A stretch of 64,000 bases of DNA, taken from positions 1,714,001 through 1,778,000 of the forward strand of contig NZ_CP049017.1 of assembly GCF_014236795.1 (NCBI RefSeq), given 5' to 3'. Positions 4,060-55,164 of the stretch are shown in pieces. Position 1 is the first letter of the stretch; the number at the start of each line of letters is the position of its first letter. The position numbers and the translations under genes were made by a program. The notes beneath the pieces were generated by a model, which made no database searches, was not told where the DNA came from, and was given only the letters and a program-made list of their open reading frames with translations. Origin of the DNA: Xanthomonas theicola. Its GTDB lineage: Bacteria > Pseudomonadota > Gammaproteobacteria > Xanthomonadales > Xanthomonadaceae.

Positions 4060-7000
4060 TCAGGCCGGTGCGGCGCGCGCGTTAGGATCCTGCTCGCGGG
4101 GAGTCTGCGACTGAGTCAGCGAGGCGGCCAGTGCGACCAGCTTGACCGGATCCACCGGCTTGCCCAGGTGCGCGTTGAAGCCGGCATCCAGCGCCTGTGA
4201 ACGATCTTCGGTGCGCACATAGGCCGTCAGCGCGATCGCCGGGATGCGGTTGACCGCCCCGGCGCCGCGCGCACGCACGCTGCGGATCAGGCTGTGCCCG
4301 TCGCGGTGCGGCATGCCCACGTCGCTGACCAGCAGATCGTAGGGGCGCTCGCGCAGCAGGGCCTCGGCGTCGTCGGCGCAGACCGCGGCCTCCACCACCG
4401 CGCCGGCTTCCTGCAGGAAGCGCTGGGTGACGCCGCGCGAGTCCATGTCGTCGTCGACCACCAGCACGCGCAGGCCGTTCAGCCGTATCCCGCCGTGGGC
4501 AAGGATGGCCGCCCAGCCATCGCCGCGACGCATCGGGCGCGTACCCGCCAGATCGTTGCGCGGCAGCAGCAGGGTGAAGGTCGCGCCCATGCCGATCCCG
4601 TCGCTGCTCACCGACAACTGGCCGTGATGCATTTCCGCCAGCTGCTTGGCGATCGCCAGGCCCAGGCCCAGCCCACCGGCGCTGCGGGTGCTGCTGGCAT
4701 CGGCCTGGCGGAAACGGTCGAACACGTGCGGCAGGAATCCCGCATCGATGCCGACCCCGCTGTCGCTGACGCTGATGCGCACGCGGGTGGCGCTGCTGTC
4801 CAATGCCAGGGTGATCGCGCCCGCGCTGGGGGTGAACTTGATCGCGTTGCCGATCAGGTTGGTCAGCACCTGCTGCAGGCGCACCGCATCGCCGAGATAG
4901 GGCAGGGCGGCATCGCCGGTGGACGGCGCCAGGGCGATGTCGATGCCCTTGCTCTCGGCGCTGGGCCGGGCGGCGTCGATCGCGCCGGTGAGCAACGCGC
5001 GCAGGTCCAGTTCGGCCACCTCCAGACGCACCTTGCCGGACAGGATGGCGCTCATGTCGAGCAGGTCGTCGATGATCTGCGCTTGCGCATGGGCGCTGCG
5101 CTCGATCACCTCCAGGCCCTTGGCCAGGTCCTTCTCGCGTACCGCATCGCCCTGCATCAGCCGCGACCAGCCGAGGATCGCGTTGAGCGGGGTACGCAAC
5201 TCGTGGCTCAGGGTGGCCAGGAACTCGTCCTTCATCCGACTGGCGCGCTCGGCTTCGCCGCGCGCGCTCTGCTCGGCCGAGAGCAACTGCTGCAGGCGCT
5301 GGTCGGTCTCGCGGCGCTCGATGATGATGCCGGCCAGATGCGACGCCGAGCGCGCCAGGTCCTGTTCGTGCGCCGAGGGGTAGTGCACGAACGGGTAATA
5401 CAGCGCGACCACGCCCAGCACCTGGCCATCGCCGGTCATGATCGGCGTGGAGCAGCAGGCCACGATGTCCGCCTCGGTCACCGCCATCAGGTACTCGCGC
5501 CAGTTCGCGTCCGCACGCACGTCGCTGCAGATCACCTGCCGGCGCAGCGCCACGGCGCGGCCGCAGCAGGCGCTGTCCTTGCGGATCGGCAGGCGATGCA
5601 TGCTTCTGCGGAAGGACGCCGGCATGCTCGGCGCCGCGCCTTCCAGCAGGTATTGGCGGAACTCGTCGACCAGCATGATCGTGCAGCGCAGGCCGACGTC
5701 GCTCTGCGCCTCGATGCCGCGCGCGATCGCTTCCAGCACCGCGCTCAGCGGCCTGCCGGTGGTGATCATCTCCAGCGCCGCGCGCTCGGCGGCGGTGGCG
5801 TTCTCGATGCGTTTGCGCTCGGCGATGTCCAGCAGCGAACCGATGAAGCCCAGGAACTGCCCCGAGGCGCTGAAGCGCGGCGATGCGGTGTCCACGCACC
5901 AGCGATACTCGCCGTCGTGGCGGCGCAGCCGGTACTCGATGGTGAACGCACGGCGATCGGCGGCGCTGCGGGCCAGGACGCCGCCCACGGCAGCGACGTC
6001 GTCGGCATGGATCTTCTCCATCCAGCCCGATCCCAACGCCTCCTGCTCGGTCTGCCCGGTGAACAGATACCATTGGCGGCTGACATACTCGCAATCGCCA
6101 TCGGCATTGGCCATCCAGATCAGCACCGGCGCGTTGTCGCACAGGGTGCGGAAGCGCAGCTCGCTTTCCTGCAGGCGCTGCGCGACCACACGACGATCGT
6201 GGATGTCGGTGTTGGTGCCGATCCAGCGCACCACCCGGCCGTCGCCATCGCGGATCGGCAGAGCGCGGCCCAGATGCCAGCGATAGCTGCCATCGTGGCG
6301 GCGCAGCGGATATTCGATCTCATAGGGCTGGCCGCTGCGCACGGCTTCCGGCCAGGCCTGCATCGCCTGCGCCAGGCCTTGCTCGGTGTGCACCTTGCGC
6401 CAGCTTTCGTAGCCGGACTCGCCGGCCGGCAGGCCGGTGTATTCGTACCAGCGCTGGTTGAAATAGTCGACATTGCCATCGGCCGTGGCGGTGAACACGA
6501 TCTGCGGCATCGCGTCGGCTAGCTCGCGCAGGCGCGCCTCGCTGCGCGCCAGATCCGATTGCGCGCCGGCGCGCTCCATCGACTCCCAGCAGCGCGCCGC
6601 GACCAGCCGCACCAGTTCGATTTCCGCCGAGGTCCACGCCCGCGGCTGCAGCTGATGCACGCCGATCGCGGCGACCAGGCGGCCGGCCTTGTGCAGCGGT
6701 GCGGTCAGGATCGCGCGCGCGCCCAGGCGCCGGTAGCCGGGATCGTCGAAGCGCATCGGTGGTGCATAGGCCTCGGTGTCCTGCACCACCCATGGCCGGT
6801 TGTCACGCATGCACTCCTGCAGGTCGCTGCCGAAATCGCTGAAGCGGAAGCGGCCGATCACATGCGTCGCACCATCGACGTAGTCGGCGCGCAGGTCGAA
6901 TGCATCCTCGTCGGGATCGACGATTGCATACGCGCAGCGGCTCGCATGCAGGTGCTTGCCGAGCAAGGCGGCACCGGTTTCGCAGATCGCCTCGGCGCTG

Positions 7001-7905
7001 TCCAGGTTCTGCAGCGCATCCTCGAGCATCAGCAGGAAGCTGTCGTGGGCCTGCGCGCGCGCCTGCTCGGTGCGATCGATGCCGTGCATCAGCACCCCGG
7101 TAACGTTGCCCTCGGCGTCACCCATCGGCTGGTACACGCATTCCAGCGTCGTCTCCGACGCCGCCTCTTGCGGGGTGCGGCGCAGGTTGAAGGTCATCGA
7201 CCTGCCGGCGAGCGCCTGGCCGCTGGCGCGGACGTTGTTGAGCAGTCCGATGAAGCCCTGTTGCAGGGTCTCCGGGATCGCCTCGGCCAACGGCTTGCCG
7301 ACCACATCGCGCGGGCCGACCAGTTGCTGGTACCGTTGGTTGACGCGCTCGACCACGTAATCCGAGCCGCGCAGGATCGCCAGCGCCGCCGGCGACTGCT
7401 CGAACGCTTCCGTCATCTGTGCGCGCTGCGCGTCCAGCGCCTTCAGCAGCGCATCGCGCTCGCGCTCGAGCTTGATCCGCTTTGTGTCCTCGATGCACAC
7501 GCACAACACTCCGCCGACGCCGTCGTCGTCGTCGAAGATCGGGCTGTAGGAAAAAGTGAAGTACACGTCTTCGCTGTAGCCGTTGCGCATCATCACGAAC
7601 GGCACGTACTCGTTCCAGGTCGATTCGCCGGTCGCCAGCACCTGTTCGGCCTGGCCCGCCAACGCGGGCCACACGTCCGGCCACACCTCGCTCACCGCAC
7701 GCCCGAAGGCATGGGGATGACGCATCCCCAGCACCGGGATATACGCGTCGTTGTACAGATTGATCAGCCGCTTGCCCCAGCGGATCACCATCGGAAAGCG
7801 CGAACTCAGGCAGATCGACAGTGCCGAGCGCAGGCTTTGCGGCCAGTTCTCCATCGGTCCCAGTTCGTGGCGTGACCAATCCGTGGCGCGCAGCAACTCT
7901 CCCAT
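4060..7905 (-). CDS. Hybrid sensor histidine kinase with PAS, GAF and receiver domains
   Basis: This 1281-aa protein has no obvious membrane segment, so it is probably a cytoplasmic sensor. Several PAS-type modules are visible (for example IVFTATADGNVDYFNQRW and its repeat VLIWMANADGDCEYVSRQW), interleaved with two GAF-like regions. The H-box SHELRTPLNAI puts the phospho-accepting His near residue 899. An ATPase domain follows (NLIGNAIKF, GVGID, GLGLGLAI), and a C-terminal receiver has its Asp in LLVSDVGMP near residue 1193. The single-domain response regulator at 8015-8395 lies just upstream in the same direction and is the likely partner or co-regulated gene. The signal is unknown. Tandem PAS/GAF sensors of this size are common in Xanthomonas. 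Confidence 0.9.
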   Translation of the reverse strand: MGELLRATDWSRHELGPMENWPQSLRSALSICLSSRFPMVIRWGKRLINLYNDAYIPVLGMRHPHAFGRAVSEVWPDVWPALAGQAEQVLATGESTWNEYVPFVMMRNGYSEDVYFTFSYSPIFDDDDGVGGVLCVCIEDTKRIKLERERDALLKALDAQRAQMTEAFEQSPAALAILRGSDYVVERVNQRYQQLVGPRDVVGKPLAEAIPETLQQGFIGLLNNVRASGQALAGRSMTFNLRRTPQEAASETTLECVYQPMGDAEGNVTGVLMHGIDRTEQARAQAHDSFLLMLEDALQNLDSAEAICETGAALLGKHLHASRCAYAIVDPDEDAFDLRADYVDGATHVIGRFRFSDFGSDLQECMRDNRPWVVQDTEAYAPPMRFDDPGYRRLGARAILTAPLHKAGRLVAAIGVHQLQPRAWTSAEIELVRLVAARCWESMERAGAQSDLARSEARLRELADAMPQIVFTATADGNVDYFNQRWYEYTGLPAGESGYESWRKVHTEQGLAQAMQAWPEAVRSGQPYEIEYPLRRHDGSYRWHLGRALPIRDGDGRVVRWIGTNTDIHDRRVVAQRLQESELRFRTLCDNAPVLIWMANADGDCEYVSRQWYLFTGQTEQEALGSGWMEKIHADDVAAVGGVLARSAADRRAFTIEYRLRRHDGEYRWCVDTASPRFSASGQFLGFIGSLLDIAERKRIENATAAERAALEMITTGRPLSAVLEAIARGIEAQSDVGLRCTIMLVDEFRQYLLEGAAPSMPASFRRSMHRLPIRKDSACCGRAVALRRQVICSDVRADANWREYLMAVTEADIVACCSTPIMTGDGQVLGVVALYYPFVHYPSAHEQDLARSASHLAGIIIERRETDQRLQQLLSAEQSARGEAERASRMKDEFLATLSHELRTPLNAILGWSRLMQGDAVREKDLAKGLEVIERSAHAQAQIIDDLLDMSAILSGKVRLEVAELDLRALLTGAIDAARPSAESKGIDIALAPSTGDAALPYLGDAVRLQQVLTNLIGNAIKFTPSAGAITLALDSSATRVRISVSDSGVGIDAGFLPHVFDRFRQADASSTRSAGGLGLGLAIAKQLAEMHHGQLSVSSDGIGMGATFTLLLPRNDLAGTRPMRRGDGWAAILAHGGIRLNGLRVLVVDDDMDSRGVTQRFLQEAGAVVEAAVCADDAEALLRERPYDLLVSDVGMPHRDGHSLIRSVRARGAGAVNRIPAIALTAYVRTEDRSQALDAGFNAHLGKPVDPVKLVALAASLTQSQTPREQDPNARAAPA

Positions 7906-8014
7906 GGCGCTGCCGGCAGGGAGCCTGACAGGGGAGGGCGGGCATTCGTGGGCGTTGATGGCGATATTCCTCGAATCGATCCCTGCCGCAGTGCAGGCTG
8001 CAAACGTAGGAGTA

Positions 8015-8395
8015 TCAAGGTCGACCGGTCATTTTTGCGTGAGCATCGTGCAGCGCCTTGATCAGCTGTTCGGACAGATAGGGCTTGGTCAGCACCACAC
8101 CGGCGGCGAAGCCGACAGGCAGCGAGTCGGCGGCGACGCCCGTGGCCAGGACGTACGGGATTGCATGCTCGCTCAGTACCCTGGCAACCGGCTCGCTGGT
8201 CTCGCCGGCCGCCAAGCGGAAGTCGAGCACCGCACGGTTCGGTCGTTCGCGTTCAATCATCGACAGCGCCTGCTGTACCGACTCGGCCGGGCCCACGACC
8301 TCGGCGCCAGCCTGAGCAAGTTGCAACTCCAACAGTGTGGCGTTCATCGCGTCGTTCTCAACCACCAGGATACGCAGGCCCCGCAATGCCGACAT
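8015..8395 (-). CDS. Single-domain response regulator (receiver only)
   Basis: The 126-aa protein is one CheY-like receiver: N-terminal ILVVENDAMNA contributes the acidic pocket, AVLDFRL carries the phospho-acceptor Asp, and VLTKPY carries the conserved Lys. There is no output domain, so it probably acts by protein contact or as a phosphate relay with the hybrid kinase 109 nt downstream. The ATG at 8395 (MSALRGLRILVVE) is preferred over a start at 8491, because the extra 32 residues are low-quality sequence and the receiver fold begins directly after 8395. Confidence 0.85.
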   Translation of the reverse strand: MSALRGLRILVVENDAMNATLLELQLAQAGAEVVGPAESVQQALSMIERERPNRAVLDFRLAAGETSEPVARVLSEHAIPYVLATGVAADSLPVGFAAGVVLTKPYLSEQLIKALHDAHAKMTGRP

Positions 8396-8530
8396 CGCTT
8401 GCTCGTTAAGGTCTTGGAAAATAAAAGTATAGCGGCAGCCATGATCGCCTCGTCGAGACGCCGATCCCGGTAAAGATGAAGCATTTACCACTGTCGCTGG
8501 TTCCTGTACTCGTCTATACTGATCAGCCGC

Positions 8531-8617
8531 GCCGAAGTGGCGGAATCGGTAGACGCAGCGGACTCAAAATCCGCCGCCCTTAAAAGCGTGTGGGTTCGAG
8601 TCCCACCTTCGGCACCA
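8531..8617 (+). tRNA. tRNA-Leu (anticodon CAA)
   Basis: The gene begins GCCGAAG and ends CTTCGGC-A-CCA, so the acceptor stem pairs fully and the CCA is encoded. The anticodon loop CTCAAAA, between GCGGA and TCCGC, gives CAA. A long variable arm, typical of Leu tRNA, follows. A TATACT -10 box at 8515-8520 fits a promoter just upstream. Confidence 0.97.
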
Positions 8618-8625
8618 ATGACTTA

Positions 8626-8647
8626 CGGCAGCTTCGGCTGCCGTTTT
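8626..8647 (+). terminator. Intrinsic terminator after tRNA-Leu
   Basis: CGGCAGC-TTCG-GCTGCCG forms a 7-bp stem closed by a stable UUCG-type loop, followed by TTTT. It begins 9 nt after the tRNA CCA end. From 8648 to 8928 I see no gene. Confidence 0.75.
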
Positions 8648-8928
8648 CATTTCCGCGACGTGCCATCCCACGACGATCGCAGCGTGCGCGCGTGCCGGTA
8701 GCGGTCGGCGCACGTGCAGCGGTGCAGGCGTTGCAGCGGATGCGCACGGCATCTTCCTGCTGAAAAGCCGTGCAGCCTTTGCCAACGGCCCTGCCGCCCG
8801 ACCAGTTCGCTCCCATGCGCGCGACGTTTTGCGCAATCGCAGGGGATTGCGTCAACGCCGCGGCGACGCTGACCAATGCCGACGGCGTCGTCGCGTGTCC
8901 GCCGCGTTAAAAAAGCTTCAAAAAACGC

Positions 8929-8957
8929 TTGCGCGCCTCCGATGCTATCGCTACTAT
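8929..8957 (+). promoter_or_regulatory. Sigma-70-type promoter for the tRNA-Ala/tRNA-Glu unit
   Basis: TTGCGC at 8929-8934 and TACTAT at 8952-8957 are separated by 17 nt. Initiation would fall a few bases downstream, with a short leader before tRNA-Ala at 8979. The call rests on sequence pattern and position only. Confidence 0.5.
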
Positions 8958-8978
8958 TCTGCTCCTCGCAGCACACGT

Positions 8979-9054
<76 letters not shown>

Positions 9055-9100
9055 ACTTTTCGGGCGTCAGGCCTGTCCGCAAAGCGACATCGTTATCAGC

Positions 9101-9176
9101 GTCCCCATCGTCTAGAGGCCTAGGACATCACCCTTTCACGGTGGCGACCGGGGTTCGAATCCCCGTGGGGACGCCA
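9101..9176 (+). tRNA. tRNA-Glu (anticodon TTC)
   Basis: The acceptor GTCCCCA pairs with the 3' TGGGGAC and the gene ends GCCA. The anticodon loop CTTTCAC gives TTC. It is second in a two-tRNA unit that ends at the terminator at 9198. Confidence 0.97.
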
Positions 9177-9197
9177 CATTTTCGCAAGAACCCCAAG

Positions 9198-9219
9198 TCC
9201 GGCGATGCCGGATTTTTTT
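9198..9219 (+). terminator. Intrinsic terminator of the tRNA-Ala/Glu unit
   Basis: TCCGGC-GAT-GCCGGA makes a 6-bp stem followed by seven T residues. It lies 21 nt after tRNA-Glu and marks the end of normal chromosome before the IS-rich island. Confidence 0.85.
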
Positions 9220-9313
9220 GGTTCTTCACCCAACCGGGTGGAGAGTGTCCTAGTCTAATTCTCGTGGACACCTCGATAGGGGAAGATCATCCCCAACGAG
9301 AACCGAGCCCGAC

Positions 9314-10125
<812 letters not shown>

Positions 10126-12035: not shown

Positions 12036-13016
12036 TTAGAGGTGCCCTTGAGTCCGCAGCTCCTTGTAGGCGAGGATCAGAAAGTTGCCGGAGCCACATG
12101 CCGGGTCGAACACGCGGATGCGGCCGAGCCTTTCAAGGAATTCGCGCAGGCGCCCCATGTTCGCTCCAGCCCGTTCCAACTCCGCTTGCAGTGAATCGAG
12201 AAGGATGGGCTCCAGCACCTTCATGATGTTGGCTGGCGATGTGTAATGCTGCATCCCCAGTTCGCCGCGCTTCTCAACGTCAACAACGGCCTGAAGCATT
12301 GAGCCAAAGATGTCAGGATTGATGAGCTTCCAATTCAGCCCTGCACAGTCGAGCAGAAGCTTGCGGCAACGCCCATCCAGCACCGGCATGGGCACGTCTT
12401 CTTCGAACAAGGAGCCGTTTACATACTTCAGCTTCGACCAAGGACGCGTCTCTGACGATCGCTTCTCTGGTGATGTGTCCATGTACTTGAAAGCGCTGTC
12501 AAAAAACGCGGCAAGATCACTGCCATCCACGTTCGACTGCCGCACAGCGGTTTCAAACACGTCCTTATCGAAGATGCCGACATCATCCGAGAACAGGCAA
12601 AATAGTATGCGCGCCATGAAGATATTAAGCGCGTGACGATCCGCATCTGTCTTCCAACCAGGATTGGCGTCGCGTACCGTACCGCGTCATGGAAGCGCGA
12701 AATGAATCGCGTGGCCCGCACATCGGCCATGCGCTCTTTTTTCGGAACGTATCGCTCGTGTCCGCCAAGCGGAAAAAAACGTCGCCCTCCAGCGAGAGCA
12801 TATCGAGGCCGACACGCAGCGGTTCCTCGTCGAACTTCGGGCTTGTATCATAGGCAGCGATGCGCTCACCATCATAGACGAGCAATATCCGAGGACGTCG
12901 TCCCTTAGGTGCAGCGTCAGCTTCCACGCGTATCCGGTCCAGCGCCGCGTCCGCCCCTCCATGTCCGGTCGCTTCGAAACGGAGCATCCGAGCCCACAAG
13001 AATGCACCGTCTTTAG

Positions 13017-14178
13017 GGATGGTCTGAACAACTCCCTCTGATCCTGCGACAATCGTACAAAGCCCAACAGGACAACGACGATGCAATTGTCTTTCGGCGA
13101 CGCGGAGTACAACGGCAAGCGCAAGCAGACGCGGCGCGAAAGGTTGCTGGCCGAGATGGATCAGGTGGTGCCGTGGAAAGACCTGCTGGCGCTGATCGCG
13201 CCGCACTATCCGAAGTCGGGCCATCCGGGCCGTCAGCCGTACCCGCTGGAGACAATGCTGCGCATCCACTTTCTGCAGCAGTGGTACGCACTGAGCGACC
13301 CGGGCGCGGAAGAAGCCTTGTACGACACGGCGTCGATGCGCCGTTTCGCCAGGATCGGCGGGTTGGATGAGGTGCCGGACGAGACCACGATCCTCAACTT
13401 CCGCCGGTTGCTGGAGACGCACGATCTGGCGCGCACGCTGTTCAACCGGGTCAACGCGCACCTATCGCGCAAGGGCCAGAGCCTGCGCGGCGGCACCATC
13501 GTGGACGCCACGATCATTGCCGCGCCCAGCTCGACCAAGAACAAGAACGGCGAGCGCGACCCGGAAATGCACCAGACCAAGAAGGGCAATCAGTACTACT
13601 TCGGGATGAAAGCGCACATCGGCGTGGACGATGAGTCCGGGCTGGTGCACCACTTGGAATGCACGGCGGCCAACGCCGCAGATATCACCCAGGCGCACAA
13701 GCTGCTGCACGGCAAGGAAGACACGGTATGCGGCGACAGCGGCTACACCGGGCTGGCCAAGCGCGAGGAGATGGCGAGCAAGCGCAAGCTGCGCTATCTG
13801 ATCGCGGAGAAGCCCTCGAAGCTGAAGCAGATCAAGAGCAAGCGCGAATTGAAGTGGGCACAGCGCTGGGAGCACGCCAAGGCCAGCCTGAGGGCGAAGG
13901 TGGAGCATCCGTTCCGGGTGATCAAGCGCCAGTTTGGCTACGTCAAGGTGCGCTATCGCGGCCTGGCGAAGAACACGGCGCAAGTGCTGACGCTGTTTGC
14001 GCTGTCGAACCTGTGGCTGAAGCGAAAGCAGTTGCTGCCTGTCGTGGGGAGGGTGTGCCTGTAATCCGGGAAATACCCCGGAAATGCGCCGGAAACGGCG
14101 AAAAACCGAGGGTCTGAGCGCCGTGGGCGTGGTCGATATGGCTTGCCTCATCCTCCGACCGCGTTGATCAGACTATCC
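13017..14178 (+). mobile_element. IS5-family element, copy A, 1162 bp, with TTAG target duplication
   Basis: The left end GGATGGTCTGAACAAC and the complement of the right end, GGATAGTCTGATCAAC, form imperfect inverted repeats. TTAG flanks both sides (13013-13016 and 14179-14182). A copy at 50384-51545 has the same length and the same encoded protein. Both look complete and are in the same orientation. Confidence 0.95.
13081..14064 (+). CDS. IS5-family transposase (copy A)
   Basis: This 327-aa intact transposase starts MQLSFGDAEYNGKRKQTRRE. It has the N-terminal DUF772-type domain (LLALIAPHYPKSGHPGRQPY) and the DDE_Tnp_1 core: Asp in GTIVDATIIAAPSSTKN, Asp in VCGDSGYTGLAKR, and the C-terminal Glu in KVEHPFRVIKRQFGY. 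The encoded protein is identical to that of copy B at 50448-51431. No stop or frameshift is present, so it is probably an active enzyme. Confidence 0.95.
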   Translation: MQLSFGDAEYNGKRKQTRRERLLAEMDQVVPWKDLLALIAPHYPKSGHPGRQPYPLETMLRIHFLQQWYALSDPGAEEALYDTASMRRFARIGGLDEVPDETTILNFRRLLETHDLARTLFNRVNAHLSRKGQSLRGGTIVDATIIAAPSSTKNKNGERDPEMHQTKKGNQYYFGMKAHIGVDDESGLVHHLECTAANAADITQAHKLLHGKEDTVCGDSGYTGLAKREEMASKRKLRYLIAEKPSKLKQIKSKRELKWAQRWEHAKASLRAKVEHPFRVIKRQFGYVKVRYRGLAKNTAQVLTLFALSNLWLKRKQLLPVVGRVCL

Positions 14179-14514
14179 TTAGCGGTATCGCGCAGTTTCG
14201 TGATGGTAGCACGCGGTGCGCCCACCGCCTCCATCAACGCCAAGCCGAACTCGCCTCCTGCTGGAGGCTTCGCGGCGAGATCGTCAAGATTGGAGTATAT
14301 TTCCCCCGGTGTCAGCATATTCTTCGACTTGTTCCTAGCCTTGTTGCTGTTCGCATCTGTCGCGTTCCGCCGCCGAATCGATTGACGCCGGGTGACAGAT
14401 CTATTTTCAATTTGATTTTAGCGCATTCTTCTACAGCATTTGGCCAGTCAACAGCAAATACATGCAAGAGGGCCATAATAATTTCAGGTCGTGCGGTCTC
14501 ATCATGGTTGTCGT

Positions 14515-15018
14515 TTAGACGATCAGCATTCTAACTTCGTCATCCGCATCGGGAATGCGCTTCATGCGCGCGTCGGCGGTCACGAAAACGAGGTCGCGCT
14601 CCTTGGCCTGCGCGCACATCCACAGATCGTTTTCGTCGATGCCGAGTTTTTTGCCTGTGGCCTTGTCTACCCATTCCTCAATATATTTCGGACGATCCTT
14701 TCGCAAAACCTTGGCGAGATACTTTTGCGCGATTCGAGCTTTCAGATCGGCGTAGGCAGCCGCGGTATGGTGAGTGATATCTAGGACGGCGTAGGTCCGC
14801 GCTTCTGCAAGGATGGCGTCAAGTGCGGGAAGATTTCCCTTGCCGATAACGGCCGCGAGGCGCGTCCCGAACGCGAGTTCGGCAAGCGCGACCGTAGAAA
14901 CGAAGCGTGGCGCTTCGGCTGGCAACGCGTTCAAAGATTGGCTTTTCTCAGCATGAAGCGGATGCGTCAGATCAAGATAAATCGATAAAACGGTCGTATC
15001 GAGGAAATAAGCGTCCAT
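14515..15018 (-). CDS. PIN-domain (VapC-like) ribonuclease in operon with a DNA methyltransferase
   Basis: The 167-aa product from the ATG at 15018 begins MDAYFLDTTVLSIYLDL, the first PIN strand with its Asp. The other acidic positions are visible in VALAELAFG, in IDENDLWMCAQA, and in FVTADARMKRIP, so the metal-binding set of a PIN nuclease appears complete. PIN proteins are usually toxins or RNA/DNA nucleases. No VapB-type antitoxin gene is next to it; instead it is third in an operon after an HTH protein and a methyltransferase, 5 nt beyond the methyltransferase stop. A TTG at 15027 could also start it with a 4-nt overlap. Its base composition is AT-richer than the core genome. Confidence 0.8.
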   Translation of the reverse strand: MDAYFLDTTVLSIYLDLTHPLHAEKSQSLNALPAEAPRFVSTVALAELAFGTRLAAVIGKGNLPALDAILAEARTYAVLDITHHTAAAYADLKARIAQKYLAKVLRKDRPKYIEEWVDKATGKKLGIDENDLWMCAQAKERDLVFVTADARMKRIPDADDEVRMLIV

Positions 15019-15023
15019 CCTGG

Positions 15024-17510
15024 TCAAGCCACATAGTCGCGTAGCAGCGTAACCTCTTCATCGGGAAGTGCACGAAAGACCTTTCTGACCCAGTCGCCAC
15101 TCGCCCGGAACCGGCCGGAGATTCGCTCGGCAAGCGTCAGTCCCGGCACCGGAAACAAGTCGTCCCAATGCGCCCATTGATGAGGAACCGGGCGCTCGGC
15201 ACCCCGGAAAAAGTTCAGCAACTGGCGCTCATGCCGCAGCGGCAGGTCATACCCACGCAGTACGGCGGCATCGATCGCCGCGAGCAGATGGGCAAGATCC
15301 GCACTGCCTTCTGCAAAGAGACGACCCTTGGTTAGGACACTTAGATATTCGTGGACAAGCTCGGGCAGCTCCTTCGGAATGTAGCTCGGCATCGGAGCCT
15401 GTGCGACCACGTTTGAACGGAAGCGATCCCTTGGTGAATGAACAGCAAGATAGGCATTGACGATTGGGCCATTCATAACTGCGCTAAAAGCAAGCAGACT
15501 TTCCGGCGTCATGTCGGTGAGCGGCCACAGCCCGAAGAACTGCTGCGAGTAGAGGCGCGATTCCCGATCGGCGACCGCACCTACCCGCCAGGGACCTCGG
15601 CTAAGCCGTGTCGCATTCATGATGAGCTTCGGCTTCGACCAATCCTGCTCATAGCCCTCACGCAGATTCTCTAGATTAAAATCCAGCCAGGTAGCGTGAA
15701 CGCCGACATATTGTTGGAAGCGTCGGGCATTCAGATACCCTCTGCGAAAGCCTTCCTTCTCGGCATCGCTTGCAGCGAGATCCTGTTCATAATTCCAGCG
15801 GAGCCCCCATCTTGGTTTGAAAATCGTTCCGAGCTGCGGAGCTTCTGCAAGATAAGACCACAAATCGTGCAGGGGCGGAATCCAAAGCTCCCCCGCCGGC
15901 TGGACGACTTCCCGAGTGGTCTCGCGCTGAACCGTCGTGCGGCCAGTTCTCAGGAACTCCGCCCGATCTCGGTCGGCAACTTCTGTTGACCGGATTGTAA
16001 CACGCGTCGATCCTTCGGCTCGCAGATCGCGCGCGACCAGTACAGCGGACTCGACGCTCGATGCGCCAAAAATCCGGTCCGGCAGTTCAACAATCTCGAC
16101 GAAGCCGTAAAGATCTTCGATGCGGCGACGCTGTTCCGAGAACTGCTTCTCCAGTATGAAGGACCGCGGCAATACGAACCCGATGGCGAGCGGCTGCGCA
16201 TCAACCACCGCGCTGAGCATTGCGACCGCCTTGGTCGGCTTCCGGCTCGCTTCCGGATAACGCTCCTTTTCTTCTTGGGTGAACGCTTCGAAAGGAGGGT
16301 TGCAGACGATCACATTCTTGCCGACCAGCGCCTTTGCCAACGCACCGTCGACGAATAGATCCGCTTCACATATGTGCCAGCCATTGTGGTTGGGATAGTC
16401 AGCAAGGATCAAAGAAAGCGTTGCCACCTCGCAGGCGAAGGGATCGATTTCATCACCCGCGATGTGCTCGATCAGAAAGTTGTGACGCTCTTGATCCGAC
16501 CATCCCACGGGAAGCAGGTCGCGCAAGTGTCTGAGCGCCGATACTAGAAAGACGCCTGCACCAGCGCATGGCTCGTAGATCTGAAGGTCGCTCGGATTAT
16601 AGCGGTGCAACTCTAGTCGCTGAACGATATACTCAGCCACTTGGCGCGGCGTGCTGTGCGTCCCGAACAGCTTGCGGGCCTCCGGCGTCACCAGCGTATT
16701 CTCATACACGAATGCAAGATCGTCCGAGGAGATGTTGGAAAAGTTAATTCCAGCGCGAAGATGTGCCCATGCCGCACCAAACATACGTGTCAGTATGGGA
16801 TTAGTCCGCCCATCGATTTGTGACAGGCTATAATAACGCTCGATAGCCGTCAGAACCGAAGACAGATTGTCCGCATTCCACTCCGCCGAGAACGGGTGGC
16901 GGCGATCCTCTAGAACCTTAGCGGCCAACAAGCGGAATACCACCCTGAACATGGTTCGCACGTCGAGCCGACCCCCACCAGGTGCCTTGCGGGCCAGATC
17001 GAGCGTCTCGATAAGCAGGCGGTCAAGCTTGAGATGGATTTCCCCTTCAATCGCCGGCAGGAGCCCTAGGTCGACGAAGTCAAGCTGATGGCCGGCTGCG
17101 GGGCTCCCCACCGCCTTTGCGCGATGGATCGCATCAGGATGCCAGTCCGCTTGGTTGCGTTCGAATAGGTGGGTGAGCTGGTCAACCTTGACCTTCTCGA
17201 TCGCTCTCGGCGGCCCTTCGCTGCGAATTTGCCAGACCGTGACATCATCGCGGTCGATGACAAACAACAACGGCGCACCGAGCGCACGGTGCGACTGGAC
17301 GAGCTCGATGGTGGAGCGTCCGTCACTTTCAACTACGCCAAAGGCAGCCGAACGATAAGACGGAGGGGTTCGTGTGAACGCAACCAGTGGCACGGTACGC
17401 GTATCGTTGCCTTCCGCAAGCACATCAGCAAACGCATAGTCCCGCACCACGGCTTCGGCACGATACCCCGCGCGGTGTGCAGCCAAGGCTATCTGATCGA
17501 GCGCGCTCAT
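15024..17510 (-). CDS. N6-adenine DNA methyltransferase (Eco57I/type IIG-like), 828 aa
   Basis: The N-terminal 150 residues (ending GAPLLFVIDRDDVTVWQI) resemble the nuclease-like or recognition-like leader of type IIG proteins, although I cannot identify a full PD-(D/E)XK site. A helical region follows, then a gamma-class methyltransferase: motif I YEPCAGAGVFLVSALRHL near residue 318 and motif IV VIVCNPPFEAF near 403. The C-terminal third resembles target-recognition sequence. The start ATG overlaps the stop of the HTH gene as ATGA (17507-17510), and the PIN gene follows within 6 nt, so the three are probably translated together. No adjacent restriction endonuclease is seen. Codon use is less GC-rich than that of neighbours, pointing to transfer. 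Confidence 0.85.
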   Translation of the reverse strand: MSALDQIALAAHRAGYRAEAVVRDYAFADVLAEGNDTRTVPLVAFTRTPPSYRSAAFGVVESDGRSTIELVQSHRALGAPLLFVIDRDDVTVWQIRSEGPPRAIEKVKVDQLTHLFERNQADWHPDAIHRAKAVGSPAAGHQLDFVDLGLLPAIEGEIHLKLDRLLIETLDLARKAPGGGRLDVRTMFRVVFRLLAAKVLEDRRHPFSAEWNADNLSSVLTAIERYYSLSQIDGRTNPILTRMFGAAWAHLRAGINFSNISSDDLAFVYENTLVTPEARKLFGTHSTPRQVAEYIVQRLELHRYNPSDLQIYEPCAGAGVFLVSALRHLRDLLPVGWSDQERHNFLIEHIAGDEIDPFACEVATLSLILADYPNHNGWHICEADLFVDGALAKALVGKNVIVCNPPFEAFTQEEKERYPEASRKPTKAVAMLSAVVDAQPLAIGFVLPRSFILEKQFSEQRRRIEDLYGFVEIVELPDRIFGASSVESAVLVARDLRAEGSTRVTIRSTEVADRDRAEFLRTGRTTVQRETTREVVQPAGELWIPPLHDLWSYLAEAPQLGTIFKPRWGLRWNYEQDLAASDAEKEGFRRGYLNARRFQQYVGVHATWLDFNLENLREGYEQDWSKPKLIMNATRLSRGPWRVGAVADRESRLYSQQFFGLWPLTDMTPESLLAFSAVMNGPIVNAYLAVHSPRDRFRSNVVAQAPMPSYIPKELPELVHEYLSVLTKGRLFAEGSADLAHLLAAIDAAVLRGYDLPLRHERQLLNFFRGAERPVPHQWAHWDDLFPVPGLTLAERISGRFRASGDWVRKVFRALPDEEVTLLRDYVA

Positions 17511-17989
17511 GGCCGACCTCGTTGCGCCGTTGCAGCGCTCGCGATCGGGATGGGTGGAAAGAGCAAAGATCGTCGCTCCACATGATCGGTTGCTGCAAGC
17601 AGTTGCTCGCGCAAGTGCGCAACAATCGCTCTCAGAGGAATGATTATCAGCGGTTGATCGCTGTGCGCTTCCGCCAGCTCTTCAGCGAGGCGCACCTCCG
17701 CCTCCTGCAAATTTAAGACAACCTTAGTACGTTCGAGAACCGGCCACGGTGATCTGTTGCACAGCTCAAACAGTGTTTCCGCCATCGGAGCGAGTGCACC
17801 AACACGAACCGAAAGGTCGATAGCAAGCGCTCGAATGACCGACGCGGCGACCATGTCGCCTGAGCTGAAACAGGGGCTATGTCCGCGACCGCGATCAAGC
17901 GAAACGATGGCCTTTTTCCAGTGCCGATATGTCTCCGGCGCAATCGAGACGGCGCTCCTTAACTGGCCCGGTGTGTAGAAAACTGTCAT
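17507..17989 (-). CDS. MerR-like winged-helix DNA-binding protein, first gene of the methyltransferase-PIN operon
   Basis: The 160-aa protein starts MTVFYTPGQLRSAVSIAPET. The pattern YTPGQL, TYRHW and then CFSSGDMVAASVIRAL matches a MerR/excisionase-type winged HTH within the first 60 residues. The remainder is helical and has no recognised effector domain. As the first gene of a three-gene run with overlapping junctions it is the likely autoregulator of the operon. A direct role in DNA recognition by the complex is also possible. About 250 bp upstream, up to tRNA-Ser, contains no gene and should hold the promoter. Confidence 0.65.
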   Translation of the reverse strand: MTVFYTPGQLRSAVSIAPETYRHWKKAIVSLDRGRGHSPCFSSGDMVAASVIRALAIDLSVRVGALAPMAETLFELCNRSPWPVLERTKVVLNLQEAEVRLAEELAEAHSDQPLIIIPLRAIVAHLREQLLAATDHVERRSLLFPPIPIASAATAQRGRP

Positions 17990-18235
17990 TTCGTGGCGCT
18001 ATCAACATGTTGCTGACCACAAGATGCCCTGTTTGCTTCCGGCGCGCAAGCCCTTCTAGGCGATGTTGACACTGCTGCGAGAGCGGAGCGGTGGTGGCGG
18101 TGCAACCCGACGAGGGTTACGGAATTGGTAGGGCCTGTGCGAGAACCGGTGTCGGCAGGGCAGCCAACAAAAAGACGCTACCTGGTTGATAATCAAAGAG
18201 ATAGCTGACCAATTTGTGCGGTAATCGGCGGTGTT

Positions 18236-18325
18236 TGGCGGAGAGAGTGGGATTCGAACCCACGGAAGGTTTGACCCTTCGCCGGTTTTCAAGACCGGTG
18301 CCTTAAACCGCTCGGCCATCTCTCC
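18236..18325 (-). tRNA. tRNA-Ser (anticodon TGA)
   Basis: The minus strand reads from GGAGAGATGGCCGAGCGG to the encoded CCA at 18236-18238. The anticodon loop CTTGAAA between CCGGT and ACCGG gives TGA. A long variable arm is present. The tRNA 3' end points at the methyltransferase-PIN island, the side on which tRNA-targeting islands insert. Confidence 0.96.
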
Positions 18326-46213: not shown

Positions 46214-47065
46214 TCAGTCGCCGCTCTGCGCGTAGCGCCTTTCAAACTCTACCGGTGACACGCCGCCAGCGGAACCATGCCGGCGGATCGGGTTGTAGAA
46301 CATCTCGATATAGTCGAACACGTCCGATGCCGCCATGGCGCGTGTCGGGTAGATCCGACGCTTGATACGTTCCTTCTTCAAGACGCTGAAGAAGCTCTCG
46401 GCCACGGCGTTGTCATGGCAGTTCCCGCGTCGGCTCATGCTCGGCACCATCCGGTGCGCCTTCAGGAACGACTGCCAATCGCTGCTGGTGAACTGCCAGC
46501 CCTGGTCGGAGTGCACCATCACGCCAGGACCGGGCTTGCGCCGCCACGCCGCTGCCACCAGTGCCTGCAGCACCAGATCGCTGGTCATTGTCGAAGCGGT
46601 TGCCCAACCCACGATCTGGCGCCAATACAGCTCCATTACCGCTGCCAAGAACAGCCAGCCCTCGTAGGTGCGGATATAGGTGATGTCCGTGACCCAGACC
46701 TTGTTCGGGGCCTGCGGAATGAAGTCCCGGTTGAGCACATTCGCCACCACGCCGACCGGACCTCCCCGCTAACGCGGCTTGCTGCCGTAGCCAACCTGCG
46801 CTCGCAAGCCTTCGGCCTTCATCAAGCGCCGCACCCGGTGACGGCTGCAACGCTCGCCGGCCTCACGCAGATCCAGGGTGAGCTTGCGATAGCCGTACAC
46901 CGCGCCGCTGGCCAGCCAGTGGTGCTTGATCAGGCCCAGCAAGCGCTGGTCCTCGCGTTCGCGGACGCTGGTGCCGTTGCGCAGCCAGGCCTAGTAACCA
47001 CTGCGATGCACGCCCAGCACCCGGCACATCGTCGCCAGACGAAACTCCCGGACGTGCGCACGCAT
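46214..47065 (-). pseudogene. IS3 orfB (copy 2) with the same two in-frame TAG codons
   Basis: The coding strand matches copy 1, with Ile instead of Leu in VTDITYIRTYEG. TAG occurs at 46991-46993 (GYYAW motif) and 46769-46771. Because both stops are shared, they existed before the two copies separated. Confidence 0.85.
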
Positions 47066-47082
47066 GAACGCGTACTTCGCCC

Positions 47083-47364
47083 TTACCCCTTGGCAAAGTA
47101 CGCGGCGGCTTTTTCTAGGATGTCGCGCTCCTCGGTTACCCGCCTCAGTTCGGCCTTGAGCCGGCGAATCTCCGCTGAGTCGGTCGACGCCGCTGCAGCG
47201 CCGGCTGCCGGCGCCATCTTCCTGGCGGCCTGCACCCACCCGTATAGCGTGTGCTTGGGAATCCCGATTCGGGAGGCCACATCCACCACCGTGAAGCCGC
47301 GTTCGATCACCTGCTTCACCGCCTCGGCCCGGAACTCATCCGTGTACTGCTTGCTGTTGCCCAT
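47083..47364 (-). CDS. IS3 OrfA (copy 2)
   Basis: Identical in translation to OrfA of copy 1 (MGNSKQYTDEFRAEAVKQVI start, HTH and zipper). The slippery A5G near its end is conserved. Confidence 0.85.
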   Translation of the reverse strand: MGNSKQYTDEFRAEAVKQVIERGFTVVDVASRIGIPKHTLYGWVQAARKMAPAAGAAAASTDSAEIRRLKAELRRVTEERDILEKAAAYFAKG

Positions 47365-47427
47365 AAACACCTCGGTCATTGCCATCAATTATGGCGTCCG
47401 GATGTCTACGAAAGGCTGGCCGGTCCA

Positions 47428-47535
47428 CAGCGACCACCAGGACAGGTCAGCGGCCGGGAACTGGTGGCCCTCGGGGGTGACCAGGACGCCGCCGGCGACA
47501 TGGAAATCACGCCACTGGTGGCCCAAGCAACACAT
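47428..47535 (-). pseudogene. Fragment of a DUF3653-like phage regulator
   Basis: The minus strand reads GHQWRDFHVAGGVLVTPEGH and QFPAADLSWWSLW before the IS3 boundary. A Trp/aromatic, xLVTPEG, xxWWSL pattern is typical of DUF3653-type proteins of Xanthomonas phages, found at the position of the RstR repressor. Only this part remains. From 47536 to 47830 I see no further gene except the leader of the ssDNA-binding gene. Confidence 0.35.
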
Positions 47536-48009
47536 CACCCTGGTCAACCGCTTTTGCAGTTGACCGGGATGCGTGATCCAGGCGGAGGGGATATCGCAGA
47601 TATCCCTGGATGCCTGGGAGCAGCACGGTCCGCCCCGGCCTGCTGTGCTCCCCAGCTGTAGAGGAGGGCTCCGGGCGGCAGATGGCAAGCCTCGCGTCAC
47701 GGGTCAACGAGCTTCTCCCCACTACCTCCTTTGGGGGGGTAGGGGGGGACTTAGCTTGACCCCACAGTACCGCCCGAAATTTGCAGAGACGCCTCACAAA
47801 TCCATCAATTGAATCAAAGGGAAAATCACCATGAACGCTCCGAAGATCACGATTAACAGCTCCGTCGAGACCCGTACCGTCACAACTGCCAAGGGCATGC
47901 AGAAAGCCATTTACAGCCAGCGTGCCACGCTCGAGACCGAAGCCATGCGTATTCAGGTTGAAGTTGAGGTCGATGGCCTGGACAAGGGTTACCCCGTCGG
48001 TGCTGTTAA

Positions 48010-49109
48010 GGAAGGTCTGAACAACGTTCCAGACCACATACATTCCGGCATCTTGAACGCCAGGAACGCGTAAAGCGGGTTTGTCGGACGAGGTTTTGCG
48101 CTTTTCTGGCGACGTATCCCGCGCCAGGCAGCATTCCCCCCTGGCCGGCAGCAACTGCCGGCGCGCCATCCATCGATTGGAGAGCGCAAACAACGTCAGC
48201 ACCTGCGCCGTGTTCTTGGCTAGGCCCCGATAGCGGACCTTGGTGTAACCGAACTGGCGTTTGATCACCCGGAATGGATGCTCCACCTTCGCGCGTACGC
48301 TGGCCTTGAAGTGTTCCCAACGCGTTTGCCGGGCACGCTCGCGTTGATTGCCGATGGCTTGGATCGTCGAGGGTCTGGCGGCAATGAAGAATGCTGCCTT
48401 GCAGTTTTGCAGTTCGTCGCGTTTGTCCGCACCGCTATCGCCGCTATCGCCGAACACGCTGTCTTCTTTGCCATGCAGCAAGGCGTGCGTCACCGTGACA
48501 TCGGCGACATTGGCGGCCGTGCAACGGACCTGGTGCACCAACCCGGAAAACGCATCCACGCCGATGTGCGCCTTCATCCCGAAATACCACTGATTGCCCT
48601 TCTTGGTCTGATGCATCTCAGGGTCACGCGCATGGTCGGCATTCTTGGTCGAACTGGGTGCGGCGATCAGCGTCGCATCGACAATCGTGCCCGACCGCAG
48701 GCTCTGGCCCTTGCGCGCCAGATGCGCGTTGACCGCTGCCAACATCCGCGCGGCGAGGCCATCGGTTTCCAGCAGGCGGCGAAAGTTAAGAATCGTGGTC
48801 TCCTCGGGAACGTTGTCCAAGCCACCGAGCTGGGCAAAACGACGCAAGCTCGGGATCTCGTGCAACGCTTCTTCCATCGCCGGATCGCTCAACGCATACC
48901 ACTGCTGCAACAGATGAATCCGCAACATCGTCGCCAATGCGTACGGCGGCCGACCTGGACGCCCCGACACCGGATAGTGCGGTGCGATCAGCCCCAGCAA
49001 TTGCTTCCATGGGACGACCTGCTCCATCTCGGCAAGGAAGATCTCACGGCGCCCCCGCTTACGCTTGCCCAGGCCCTCAGCATCACCAAACGTCAGTTGC
49101 GTGGCCCAT
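48010..49109 (-). pseudogene. IS5-family transposase with damaged start and no internal stop
   Basis: The coding frame contains TQLTFGDAEGLGKRKRGRRE, MEQVVPWKQLLGLIAPHYPV, DATLIAAPSSTKN and KVEHPFRVIKRQFGYTKVRY, a full DDE_Tnp_1 protein. The ATG at 49109 is followed by GGGCC, where one fewer G would put it in frame, so the normal start appears lost by a 1-nt insertion; an internal ATG (49027) would give a shortened protein. The motif SGYTGADKR is SGDSGADKR here. The frame has no stop before the IS end and runs into the ssDNA-binding gene antisense. Confidence 0.7.
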
Positions 49110-49164
49110 CCCTCTACGTGAGCGAATAGTGTCGCTCATCTGCGGTGTGTTGTTCAGACCTTCC
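48010..49164 (-). mobile_element. IS5-family element, 1155 bp, with TTAA target duplication
   Basis: The ends GGAAGGTCTGAACAAC (48010) and its inverted partner GTTGTTCAGACCTTCC (to 49164) are perfect over at least 16 bp. TTAA lies outside both ends (48006-48009 and 49165-49168). It is related to but distinct from the 1162-bp copies A and B. Confidence 0.95.
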
Positions 49165-49291
49165 TTAAGGAATGGGATGTGACGACTGACCTCGTGCCGG
49201 GCCGTTACGGCATCGAGTTGGCTCGCCGCATGACGCTGGTCGATCTGGCCAACTCGGTCCGCCCGCAGCCGTCCAAGGCGGCTTGATCGTC

Positions 49292-49495
49292 ATGGCCGTA
49301 TTCGTCCCCGCCTGTCTAGAGCGCGATTTTGATGCGCAGACGGGGACGTGCTCGGCCCCGATCTGGATACCGCAGCCGTCGTTGTTGCCGGGACTGACGG
49401 TTGCGGATGCCCAATCCATCGGGCAAGCCATCGTGCTGCTGTGGGCGGTGGCATTCGTGTTCCGGCTTATTCGTAAGGTAATTCAGCGATCCTAA
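49292..49495 (+). CDS. Small phage membrane protein, 67 aa
   Basis: It starts MAVFVPACLERDFDAQTGTC and has one C-terminal membrane helix (SIGQAIVLLWAVAFVFRLIR) followed by a basic tail. It lies 5 nt after the ssDNA-binding gene and before the major coat gene, where inoviruses encode minor virion-tip proteins (pVII/pIX class). The exact counterpart is uncertain. Confidence 0.7.
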   Translation: MAVFVPACLERDFDAQTGTCSAPIWIPQPSLLPGLTVADAQSIGQAIVLLWAVAFVFRLIRKVIQRS

Positions 49496-49512
49496 TCCTT
49501 AAGGAGGATGTA

Positions 49513-49737
49513 ATGCGTACTGCTTTTATTAATTACAAGACCAAACTTGCTTTTATTGGCACGGCGGCTGTCGTATCAGCTCCTGCATTTGCCGCCGGTG
49601 GCGGTGGCGGTGTCGATGTTTCTGCGGTGGTGGCCGCGATCAATGGTGCAGCAGCTCCTATCGCCAGCATCGGTGCGGCCGTGTTGATCGTGATGGTCGG
49701 TATCAAGGTCTACAAGTGGGTGCGTCGAGCGATGTAA
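49513..49737 (+). CDS. Filamentous phage major coat protein (pVIII-type)
   Basis: The 74-aa precursor starts MRTAFINYKTKLAFIGTAAV. The signal peptide ends APAFA, with cleavage expected after Ala27. The mature part has a Gly-rich N-terminus, a hydrophobic helix (IASIGAAVLIVMVGIKVY) and the basic end KWVRRAM that contacts DNA. A GGAGG ribosome binding site is at 49502-49506, and a strong terminator follows. Confidence 0.93.
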   Translation: MRTAFINYKTKLAFIGTAAVVSAPAFAAGGGGGVDVSAVVAAINGAAAPIASIGAAVLIVMVGIKVYKWVRRAM

Positions 49738-49742
49738 CGACT

Positions 49743-49781
49743 ACCGGCGGGCAGGGCCGACACCCTCCCGCCGGTCTTTTT
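49743..49781 (+). terminator. Phage terminator after the major coat gene
   Basis: ACCGGCGGG and CCCGCCGGT form a 9-bp stem around 15 nt, followed by C and five T residues. Inoviruses typically terminate strongly after the coat gene to limit pIII transcription. Confidence 0.88.
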
Positions 49782-49797
49782 CCAGGGGGATAGTGTT

Positions 49798-49866
49798 ATG
49801 GACGGATGGATTTGGTTATGCGCGTGGCTTGTGGCTTGCGCCATCGTGTTTGTGGATTTTGAGTGA
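49798..49866 (+). CDS. 22-aa hydrophobic phage micro-protein
   Basis: ATG 49798 to TGA 49864-49866 encodes MDGWIWLCAWLVACAIVFVD then FE. A GGGG ribosome-binding-like element lies just upstream. Its stop overlaps the pIII start (TGATG). Its size and single membrane helix suit a tip protein or an export peptide of the pVII/pIX kind. It is too short for most gene finders. Confidence 0.5.
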   Translation: MDGWIWLCAWLVACAIVFVDFE

Positions 49867-50383
49867 TGCGTGCGTTGATTGCTTTTCTTCTCGTGGTGAT
49901 CGCAACTTCCCTGCTTTTTTCGGCCGTCGCTCGTGCTACCGATCAGGGCCAGGCATACGTTGCGTGTTCTGCTCGCGCTGCGCAGTGGTATTCTGACCCA
50001 TCCAATGTGTTGTCCTATCCGCAGCGTTCAGTCAGTTGCGTAGTTCCTGATGGCTATCAAGTTTATCAATGTCGTTGGATTAGCACTGGTGTTGGTTCTA
50101 CGGCTAGCGGCATCTGTGGTGCTTATTCGTATGAGACCACCTGTGCGTCTAAGTCATCGGTACAACGTCCGCGTGTGCCTGTGTCTGGCTCCGTTGAATG
50201 TAATTCTGGCTGCTCCGTGAGTTACATGGCTAATGGTGACGACGAGACATCTACCGTTAGCTATAACGGTCGCGTCTGCAAAGGAGACAGTACGGATTGC
50301 AGCTCTATACCGTCTGATAAAGGCAATTTTGTTTGGAATCCCTATATGGGTGTTTGCCAGCCCGTCTCGCCCGAATGTCCTAA

Positions 50384-53984: not shown

Positions 53985-53985
53985 C

Positions 53986-54636: not shown

Positions 54637-54648
54637 TAGACTACTTCC

Positions 54649-54840
54649 ATGAACAATGTGCGCTCGCCGCTCGCTTATGAATTTGAAACCGCTGATGCGG
54701 AAGCCAACTACGATGCTTGGCTGCGCACCAAGGTAGCGGCGAGCGTTGCTGATTCGAGCCCATTGATCCCACACGATGAGGTCGAGCGCCGGATGGCTGA
54801 GCGGTTGACCGCCTTGAAGGCCAAGCATTCGGCTGACTGA
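54649..54840 (+). CDS. Antitoxin of a type II toxin-antitoxin pair
   Basis: The 63-aa protein starts MNNVRSPLAYEFETADAEAN and ends KAKHSAD. EANYDAWLRTKVAASVADSS and IPHDEVERRMAERL match the stability/antitoxin class (RelB/ParD/DUF-type) paired with RelE/ParE toxins. Its stop overlaps the toxin start (TGATG at 54838-54842). No clear ribbon-helix-helix is visible, so DNA binding is unsure. Confidence 0.8.
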   Translation: MNNVRSPLAYEFETADAEANYDAWLRTKVAASVADSSPLIPHDEVERRMAERLTALKAKHSAD

Positions 54841-55155: not shown

Positions 55156-55164
55156 GTAGACGCC

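Follow-up and report, generated by a model that had tools for sequence, protein, structure and literature searches.

A mobile HTH, N6-adenine methyltransferase and PIN operon in Xanthomonas theicola as a candidate abortive defence system with a variable third gene

In a stretch of 64,000 nucleotides from Xanthomonas theicola (contig NZ_CP049017.1, positions 1,714,001 to 1,778,000), hereafter called the window in its whole length, three adjacent genes encode successively a helix-turn-helix (HTH) protein, an N6-adenine DNA methyltransferase and a PIN nuclease. By a narrow preference, this trio is viewed here as a mobile, restriction-modification-like operon of abortive type, where the methyltransferase would restrain a VapC-like RNase; the trigger and the target are conjectural and the restraint of the PIN protein is argued by analogy. 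Over the wider set of related operons, and here confidence falls somewhat short of even, the HTH protein and the methyltransferase may form a constant core marking self DNA and leashing an interchangeable third-gene weapon, the enzyme of the RES branch having taken up the toxin-binding part of an antitoxin. Such weapons would comprise a PD-(D/E)XK-like DNase, a VapC-like PIN RNase, a RES toxin and, perhaps, a protein of metallo-beta-lactamase fold.

A conserved three-gene unit

As established by an open reading frame (ORF) check of the window, the trio consists of three complete ORFs on the minus strand, in the order HTH, methyltransferase and PIN, with the following features:

17507-17989, minus strand: HTH gene, 160 aa, presumed autoregulator, with a conserved C-terminal Q..L.FPP tail (20-row alignment)
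15024-17510, minus strand: N6-adenine DNA methyltransferase, gamma-class, 828 aa (PF02384, E 9.5e-15; 22-row alignment; Foldseek)
17151-17510, minus strand: N-terminal domain of the methyltransferase, residues 1-120, predicted PD-(D/E)XK fold with E-x-K apparently replaced (T46, T48)
16545-16577, minus strand: methyltransferase motif I YEPCAGAGVFL, residues 312-322, with Y312, E313, P314, G317, A318, G319, F321 and L322 invariant in 22 rows
16290-16304, minus strand: methyltransferase catalytic motif CNPPF, residues 403-407, invariant in 22/22 rows
14515-15018, minus strand: PIN nuclease gene, presumed effector, 167 aa from ATG (PF01850, E 4.9e-11)

The HTH and methyltransferase ORFs are joined by an ATGA overlap and the ATG of the PIN gene lies 5 nt past the methyltransferase stop, an alternative TTG start at 15027 giving a protein of 170 aa. 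These coordinates agree with an earlier description made from the letters alone (the sequence-only reading), and the trio is confirmed as a real, intact operon.

Searches anchored on the methyltransferase returned 13 loci (the window, L002-L007, G233, G242, G502, G702, G949 and G1033), the match rates in overlapping genome sets being 3/398 for the phylum, 3/385 for the class and 4/298 for the family. The PIN ATG is located 3-6 nt behind the methyltransferase in 12 of these 13 loci, the exception being L007, where a RES gene overlaps the methyltransferase by 4 nt, and a short HTH-type gene lies directly upstream in 13/13. Such co-occurrence of the three genes is far from chance. The sequence-only reading had itself named two ways in which it could prove wrong, i.e., a rare co-occurrence of the three genes elsewhere, or a PIN gene left over from a VapBC pair with a lost antitoxin, and neither agrees with this arrangement.

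The distances of the three proteins correlate (Mantel r 0.94-0.96 over 10 loci, including four with another type of HTH, with 0/5000 permutations as high), and do so in the six loci without those other-type HTHs (r 0.94-0.98, p 0.001-0.003). For the single locus pair formed by the window and L002, dN/dS amounts to 0.085 for PIN, 0.146 for the methyltransferase and 0.232 for the HTH protein (26, 104 and 17 differences, respectively), pointing to purifying selection on all three genes. A wider check by longest-contig size took in the best 120 per family (the PIN list holding 119 of 120): 30/120 listed methyltransferase clusters pair with a listed PIN and 31 with a listed HTH, a shifted-size control giving 0.5-0.6 pairings, and 30 of the 48 PIN contigs above 5 kb have no partner among the methyltransferases listed. 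As such, this pairing supports linkage without measuring its extent.

Within the genus, the methyltransferase is found in 1/20 genomes, namely the window's own. At the DNA level, 14179-18241 (4.06 kb) is 94.6% identical to Brucella pseudogrignonensis (L002), 14182-18241 is 93.3% identical to a Sphingobium metagenome-assembled genome (L004), and the Oceaniglobus locus (L003) agrees over 3.5 kb at 89.2% identity; comparisons of this kind support an operon that is probably mobile and foreign to its genus.

The methyltransferase and the occupant of the third slot

Besides PF02384, the methyltransferase matches MmeI_Mtase (E 1.3e-07), and the two motifs reported from the letters, YEPCAGAGVFL and CNPPF, are both in place; as expected for type II restriction-modification, the catalytic motifs of the methyltransferase are intact. 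With a limit of E 0.001, its family counts 1245 proteins, and 116 of the best 120 have 825-832 aa. The top Foldseek rows for the whole model are the type IIG enzyme DrdV, and among the 18 leading VIA rows for the N-terminal domain, 15 carry a title or an enzyme name that marks them as a restriction enzyme, a resolvase or a putative nuclease, DrdV and BpuSI being the best. No E-x-K occurs at the expected place of this domain, a position judged by eye, where T46 is invariant and residue 48 is T or V. The protein resembles a type IIG enzyme whose cutter domain is dead, the loss of E-x-K being apparent and read by eye, and the active PD-(D/E)XK nuclease that type IIG/IIL enzymes have in the same chain appears to be missing. 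The absence of an adjacent endonuclease, as first described, overlooks the degenerate nuclease domain in the methyltransferase itself. A hypervariable recognition part was considered and rejected, pairwise identities in A1, averaged over blocks of 30 residues, being 0.50-0.81 up to residue 480 and 0.39-0.67 beyond, with no sharp block.

Concerning the PIN protein, the acidic residues noticed from the letters are indeed kept, E47, D131 and D149 being found in 17/17 rows and D7 in 16/17, with E in the remaining row; these are the four acidic residues expected of a VapC. Its profile matches VapC/FitB-type chains in the PDB (E 2.8e-05 to 1.1e-03), and the single sequence matched there only an unrelated protein (E 0.5). 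The lack of a VapB partner is likewise borne out, the place directly upstream, where a VapB-type gene would be expected, being occupied by the methyltransferase. From these sequence features, the window PIN is most likely a VapC-like RNase, for which the target is only presumed.

Searches anchored on the HTH protein gave 14 loci (7 plasmid records, 4/385 genomes and 3/398 genomes including the window's own), with a third gene that varies, namely (i) PIN in 5 (the window, L005, L006, L016 and L017), (ii) RES in 1 (L007; PF08808, E 1.5e-16), and (iii) a PD-(D/E)XK-like protein of ~217-288 aa, with a D...E-x-K signature read by eye, in 8 (L041-L044, L051, L052, L056 and L057). Residues D87, E103 and K105 are invariant in the four nuclease-type third genes that were aligned. 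A methyltransferase ORF or remnant adjoins the HTH gene in 14/14 of these loci and is complete in 12. The methyltransferases of the five PIN-type loci and of L007 are related to the window's over most of its length; those of L041, L042, L043, L051, L056 and L057 match PF02384 (E 9.5e-18 to 2.5e-12), and in the case of L041 a PADLOC type IIG model covers the enzyme almost from end to end. The idea of PIN as an effector standing in an operon without endonuclease is modified accordingly, PIN occupying a slot that holds a nuclease or a RES toxin in HTH-related operons.

Two further loci may be mentioned at this point. In a cyanobacterial plasmid (L046, 5958-10284), a MerR gene, an N6 methyltransferase gene and a gene for a metallo-beta-lactamase-like protein (E 8e-04, under cut-off) follow one another in the gene order of the trio, the last possibly a fourth type of effector; this locus is outside the 13 and 14 loci above, its methyltransferase match covering 38% of the query and its HTH not being among the matches of the HTH search. 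A Polaromonas locus (L045) proved to be a different operon and was dropped.

The RES-type locus L007 suggests how a methyltransferase of this kind could restrain its neighbour. With 945 aa, its methyltransferase is ~115 residues longer than its relatives, and the resulting tail (L007 12485-12820) resembles the Xre-MbcA-ParS middle domain (3.8e-04) and then the toxin-binding domain (6.8e-05), in the right order and both under Pfam cut-offs; the RES toxin gene comes directly after. RES toxins are described as pairing with Xre-type HTH antitoxins (PMC2701414) and a RES-domain toxin as depleting NAD (PMC11535050). Among the best 120 methyltransferases, only P0084 and P0091 also exceed 860 aa, with tails 48% identical to each other and 26-29% identical to that of L007 (E about 6e-05). 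In a tree including these two, both join the window and L003 (81/99), L007 being placed elsewhere, and a single clade of all PIN rows is rejected (approximately unbiased (AU) test, p 0.003); five rows are omitted from the second tree and six from the third, either as near duplicates or long branches or to limit the number of rows. The simplest reading would be a joint gain and loss of tail and toxin, with the methyltransferase restraining the latter. An enzyme of this family thus seems to bear, as a part of itself, the antitoxin against the toxin encoded in its operon. Since the window enzyme has no such tail, a restraint of PIN, if any, would use another surface; the suggestion that PIN is held in check by the methyltransferase therefore gains an analogy from the tailed enzyme of the RES sister, and nothing for PIN itself. 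Directly before the HTH, methyltransferase and RES genes of L007, at 6397-9402, stands an enzyme annotated as restriction endonuclease BseRI, whose nuclease motif looks intact by eye.

Regulation, insertion site and neighbouring genes

Pfam, searched up to E 1, gives nothing for the HTH protein of the window, and its relative in L006 reaches 20.8 bits with MerR_1, the cut-off being 21.6. Among the 13 methyltransferase-anchored loci, the window type of HTH is present in 9, L014, L015, L018 and L019 carrying another, faintly MerR-like type (MerR_1 E 0.009, under cut-off, in the one tested). The palindrome ATCTTGTTGNNNNCAACAAGAT precedes the HTH start in both L016 and L017 (p about 0.003 for either, against 300 dinucleotide shuffles), with near copies at the same distance in L005 and L006 (p 0.04); p values, over 19 loci, are uncorrected. 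The corresponding site in the window is:

18001-18025, minus strand: degenerate copy of the ATCTTGTTGNNNNCAACAAGAT palindrome, upstream of the HTH gene (p 0.44)

Copies are also degenerate in L002 (p 0.19) and L003 (p 0.53), the best score in L004 belonging to another repeat (p 0.06). Different palindromes occur in the four loci of the other HTH type (p 0.003-0.01) and in L056 (p 0.003), those of L041-L044 and L051 are not significant (p 0.07-0.37), and L007 has none (p 1.0). Palindromes resembling GGGTATGATACCC, seen twice by eye, stand just before the HTH gene in L014, L015, L018 and L019. Restriction control proteins autoregulate, and the palindromes fit a control-protein-style regulation of the HTH gene, best in the relatives; the role of autoregulator first ascribed to the HTH protein has signs of this kind in the relatives, the window copy falling short of significance.

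The genetic setting was also anticipated in good part from the letters. The trio region has a GC content of 0.565-0.588 (2-kb windows starting at 13-16 kb) versus ~0.69-0.72 some 10 kb on either side, as its reported AT-richness implied, and it does lie beside the 3' end of a tRNA-Ser. A relic of a second methyltransferase is likewise confirmed nearby, in the form of MmeI-like type IIL pieces interrupted by an IS5-type element at 12051-14318:

18236-18325, minus strand: tRNA-Ser (TGA) with its 3' end towards the operon, presumably the site of integration; the DNA shared with L002 and L004 begins there
14318-14175, 13014-12763, 12787-12665 and 12680-12051, minus strand: fragments of a restriction gene (type IIL, MmeI-like) around the IS5-type element
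about 13015-14178: IS5-type element, interrupting the MmeI-like gene at about codon 48

The DNA common to the window, L002 and L004 ends at the 3' end of this tRNA-Ser, and behind the same tRNA-Ser 17/17 readable members of the genus have DNA unlike the window's (17 of the 19 other members, L030 and L040 being left out as their tRNA end was not found), so that this tRNA-Ser (TGA) resembles an insertion site whose contents vary across the genus. The MmeI-like relic ends at 12051, and Xanthomonas plasmids carry elements with 85-86% identity to the IS5-type DNA of this region. In both L002 and L004, a complete MmeI-like relative of 896 aa adjoins the trio, with a helicase-like gene behind it. A second low-GC stretch in the window spans 47000-57000 (GC about 0.58-0.61).

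Beside the Brucella pseudogrignonensis copy (L002, 3609-9184), the adjoining genes recall a defence island, coding for an SMC-like ATPase, an nSTAND3 protein and a HamC2-like DUF3223 protein (8.9e-55). In L005, the operon has an SduA-domain gene and a helicase gene as neighbours, and an nSTAND3 gene lies near the trio in L019. The defence-island setting first proposed is sustained to the extent of such defence-type genes in some relatives and of the variable tRNA-Ser site in the genus. A viral origin was considered and rejected: one pattern scan over viral contigs turned up no related sequence, and tblastn of phage records gave a single match over 17% of the query, to a type IIG gene carried by a haloarchaeal virus.

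Proposed mechanism, alternatives and known systems

Under the reading slightly preferred here, the HTH protein would control its own operon through the upstream palindrome, as the relatives' sequences suggest, and the type IIG-like methyltransferase with its dead nuclease domain would read and N6-methylate a motif in host DNA, both activity and motif being presumed. The same enzyme may double as antitoxin, or leash, of the third protein, a role suggested by the sub-threshold tail matches for RES and by analogy for PIN. The PIN protein, a putative VapC-like RNase, would stay silent as long as it is bound to a methyltransferase acting on methylated DNA. A disturbance of this enzyme by unmodified DNA entering the cell, or by an anti-restriction factor of a phage, could then free PIN, with abortive protection as the outcome. 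If true, a single operon would be set either to restriction or to toxin-antitoxin immunity, DNA methylation serving as the safety catch of a toxin, and a restriction system could turn into an abortive toxin system by the exchange of one gene, the methyltransferase doubling as antitoxin. The operon would then offer a small, mobile and testable case of a toxin controlled by DNA methylation, and would account for some N6-methyltransferases without restriction partner as well as for some PIN genes without VapB.

Several observations weigh against this reading. The PD-(D/E)XK label of the 8 third genes is a reading of a motif by eye: Pfam gave no match for the 5 tested (L041-L044 and L056), the 6 tested gave no convincing NCBIfam and no PADLOC match, and the nuclease-type third-gene set (A9) gave none in the PDB. 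The nuclease-type and window methyltransferases share about 22% identity (one pair, 375 residues) and a common N-terminus of the PIN-type and nuclease-type enzymes, which was sought, proved not alignable; the basis for a common third slot is HTH homology and gene order. Window-type and other-type HTHs, for their part, align with an hhalign probability of 0.45%, which does not support homology. In L052 the methyltransferase is split between two ORFs, of which the first carries the methylase domain (1.3e-17), and in L044 it is reduced to two remnant ORFs, 82% and 74% identical to the ends of the L042 enzyme, without methylase domain, yet the third gene is open. Both structure models have a mean predicted local distance difference test score (pLDDT) of 63, i.e., low confidence, and the window palindrome copy alone is not significant. 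Regarding the L007 tail, its two matches attain 23.2 of 24.5 and 20.5 of 27.8 bits, and neither it nor the RES protein matched in the PDB; Pfam finds no such antitoxin domain in P0084, P0091 or the C-terminal 168 residues of the window methyltransferase. The swap test labels P0084 and P0091 by tail rather than by third gene and was set up after the tail had been seen, and without these two proteins a single PIN clade is not rejected (AU p 0.09). As for L044 itself (7450-9892), a nuclease-like third gene beside a reduced methyltransferase may need the methyltransferase to act, or be silent.

Other explanations can be drawn from the same material. The operon could be a plain toxin-antitoxin or addiction module, where PIN is the toxin, the methyltransferase and/or the HTH protein the antitoxin, stabilisation of the element the main role and methylation incidental. 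The VapC-like character of PIN, the antitoxin-like tail of the RES-operon methyltransferase and the presence of the operon on plasmids and at a tRNA site all agree with this; but the catalytic motif kept in 22/22 rows would be superfluous for a pure antitoxin, and DNase-like third genes in HTH-related operons do not fit either, which leaves this explanation unlikely though by no means negligible. A little less credit is given to PIN being a DNA-cutting restriction nuclease that replaces PD-(D/E)XK and cleaves unmethylated DNA, in a true restriction-modification system. Such a separate cutter would be needed as the methyltransferase's own nuclease domain looks dead, and the slot of PIN holds a PD-(D/E)XK-like protein in 8/14 HTH-anchored operons; however, the profile matches of PIN are to RNase toxins of the VapC/FitB kind, and a methyltransferase of the same clade pairs with a RES toxin and carries an antitoxin-like tail, the activity reported for a RES-domain toxin being NAD depletion (PMC11535050).

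Far less probable is an epigenetic regulator, where the methyltransferase would modulate genes of the host or element and PIN process RNA of the element: the conservation of both active sites speaks for it, but the spread is patchy (1/20, 3/398, 3/385 and 4/298 genomes) and the neighbours in L005 (SduA, helicase), L002 (HamC2-like, nSTAND3) and L019 (nSTAND3) are of defence type. Overall, the sequence-only reading is partly upheld, in what it said of an intact and foreign unit, of the tRNA site and of the PIN residues, and is modified as regards the endonuclease and the third slot.

With respect to known systems, the trio matches no named defence system at curated NCBIfam cut-offs, contrary to the third way in which the sequence-only reading might have failed, that the methyltransferase belongs to one. 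PADLOC, which has no cut-offs and was run within the window on the three genes and one relic piece, holds no family for HTH or PIN and gives 31 families for the methyltransferase, the best 25 all partial. The methyltransferases of MADS (mad2), BREX (PglX) and DISARM (DrmMI) belong to the same broad superfamily as the window enzyme, but NCBIfam scores are far under cut-offs for MAD2 (NF047738, 18 bits versus 720) and PglX (NF033452, 13.6 bits versus 500), and the partner genes of these systems are not seen in the trio. For DrmMI, PADLOC gives a weak partial match (E 0.0011 over 70 residues). Full-text searches, confined to the open-licence PMC literature, returned no description of this operon. 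Two PIN systems are reported as tested with DefensePredictor, one a single protein and the other with a DUF5830/AcrIF4-like partner, neither with a methyltransferase as far as described there (PMC13092281).

By its structural matches, the window methyltransferase is closest to the type IIG enzymes DrdV and BpuSI, from which it differs in the apparent replacement of E-x-K, judged by eye, and in the separate PIN gene downstream. The window PIN has the fold and acidic residues of the VapC/FitB type II toxins, but no VapB-type gene beside it and extra residues before the third acidic position; it is longer than the usual VapC. Xre-RES systems resemble L007 in the RES gene and in the antitoxin-like tail, but their antitoxin is a separate Xre protein, whereas in L007 the putative toxin-binding part is the tail of the methyltransferase. 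For the mechanism proposed, the closest functional precedent is PrrC, which the restriction enzyme linked to it keeps silent and which an anti-restriction factor of a phage sets off (PMC2610378); it differs in being linked to a type I enzyme, and the likeness to the window PIN is one of function, no homology being claimed.

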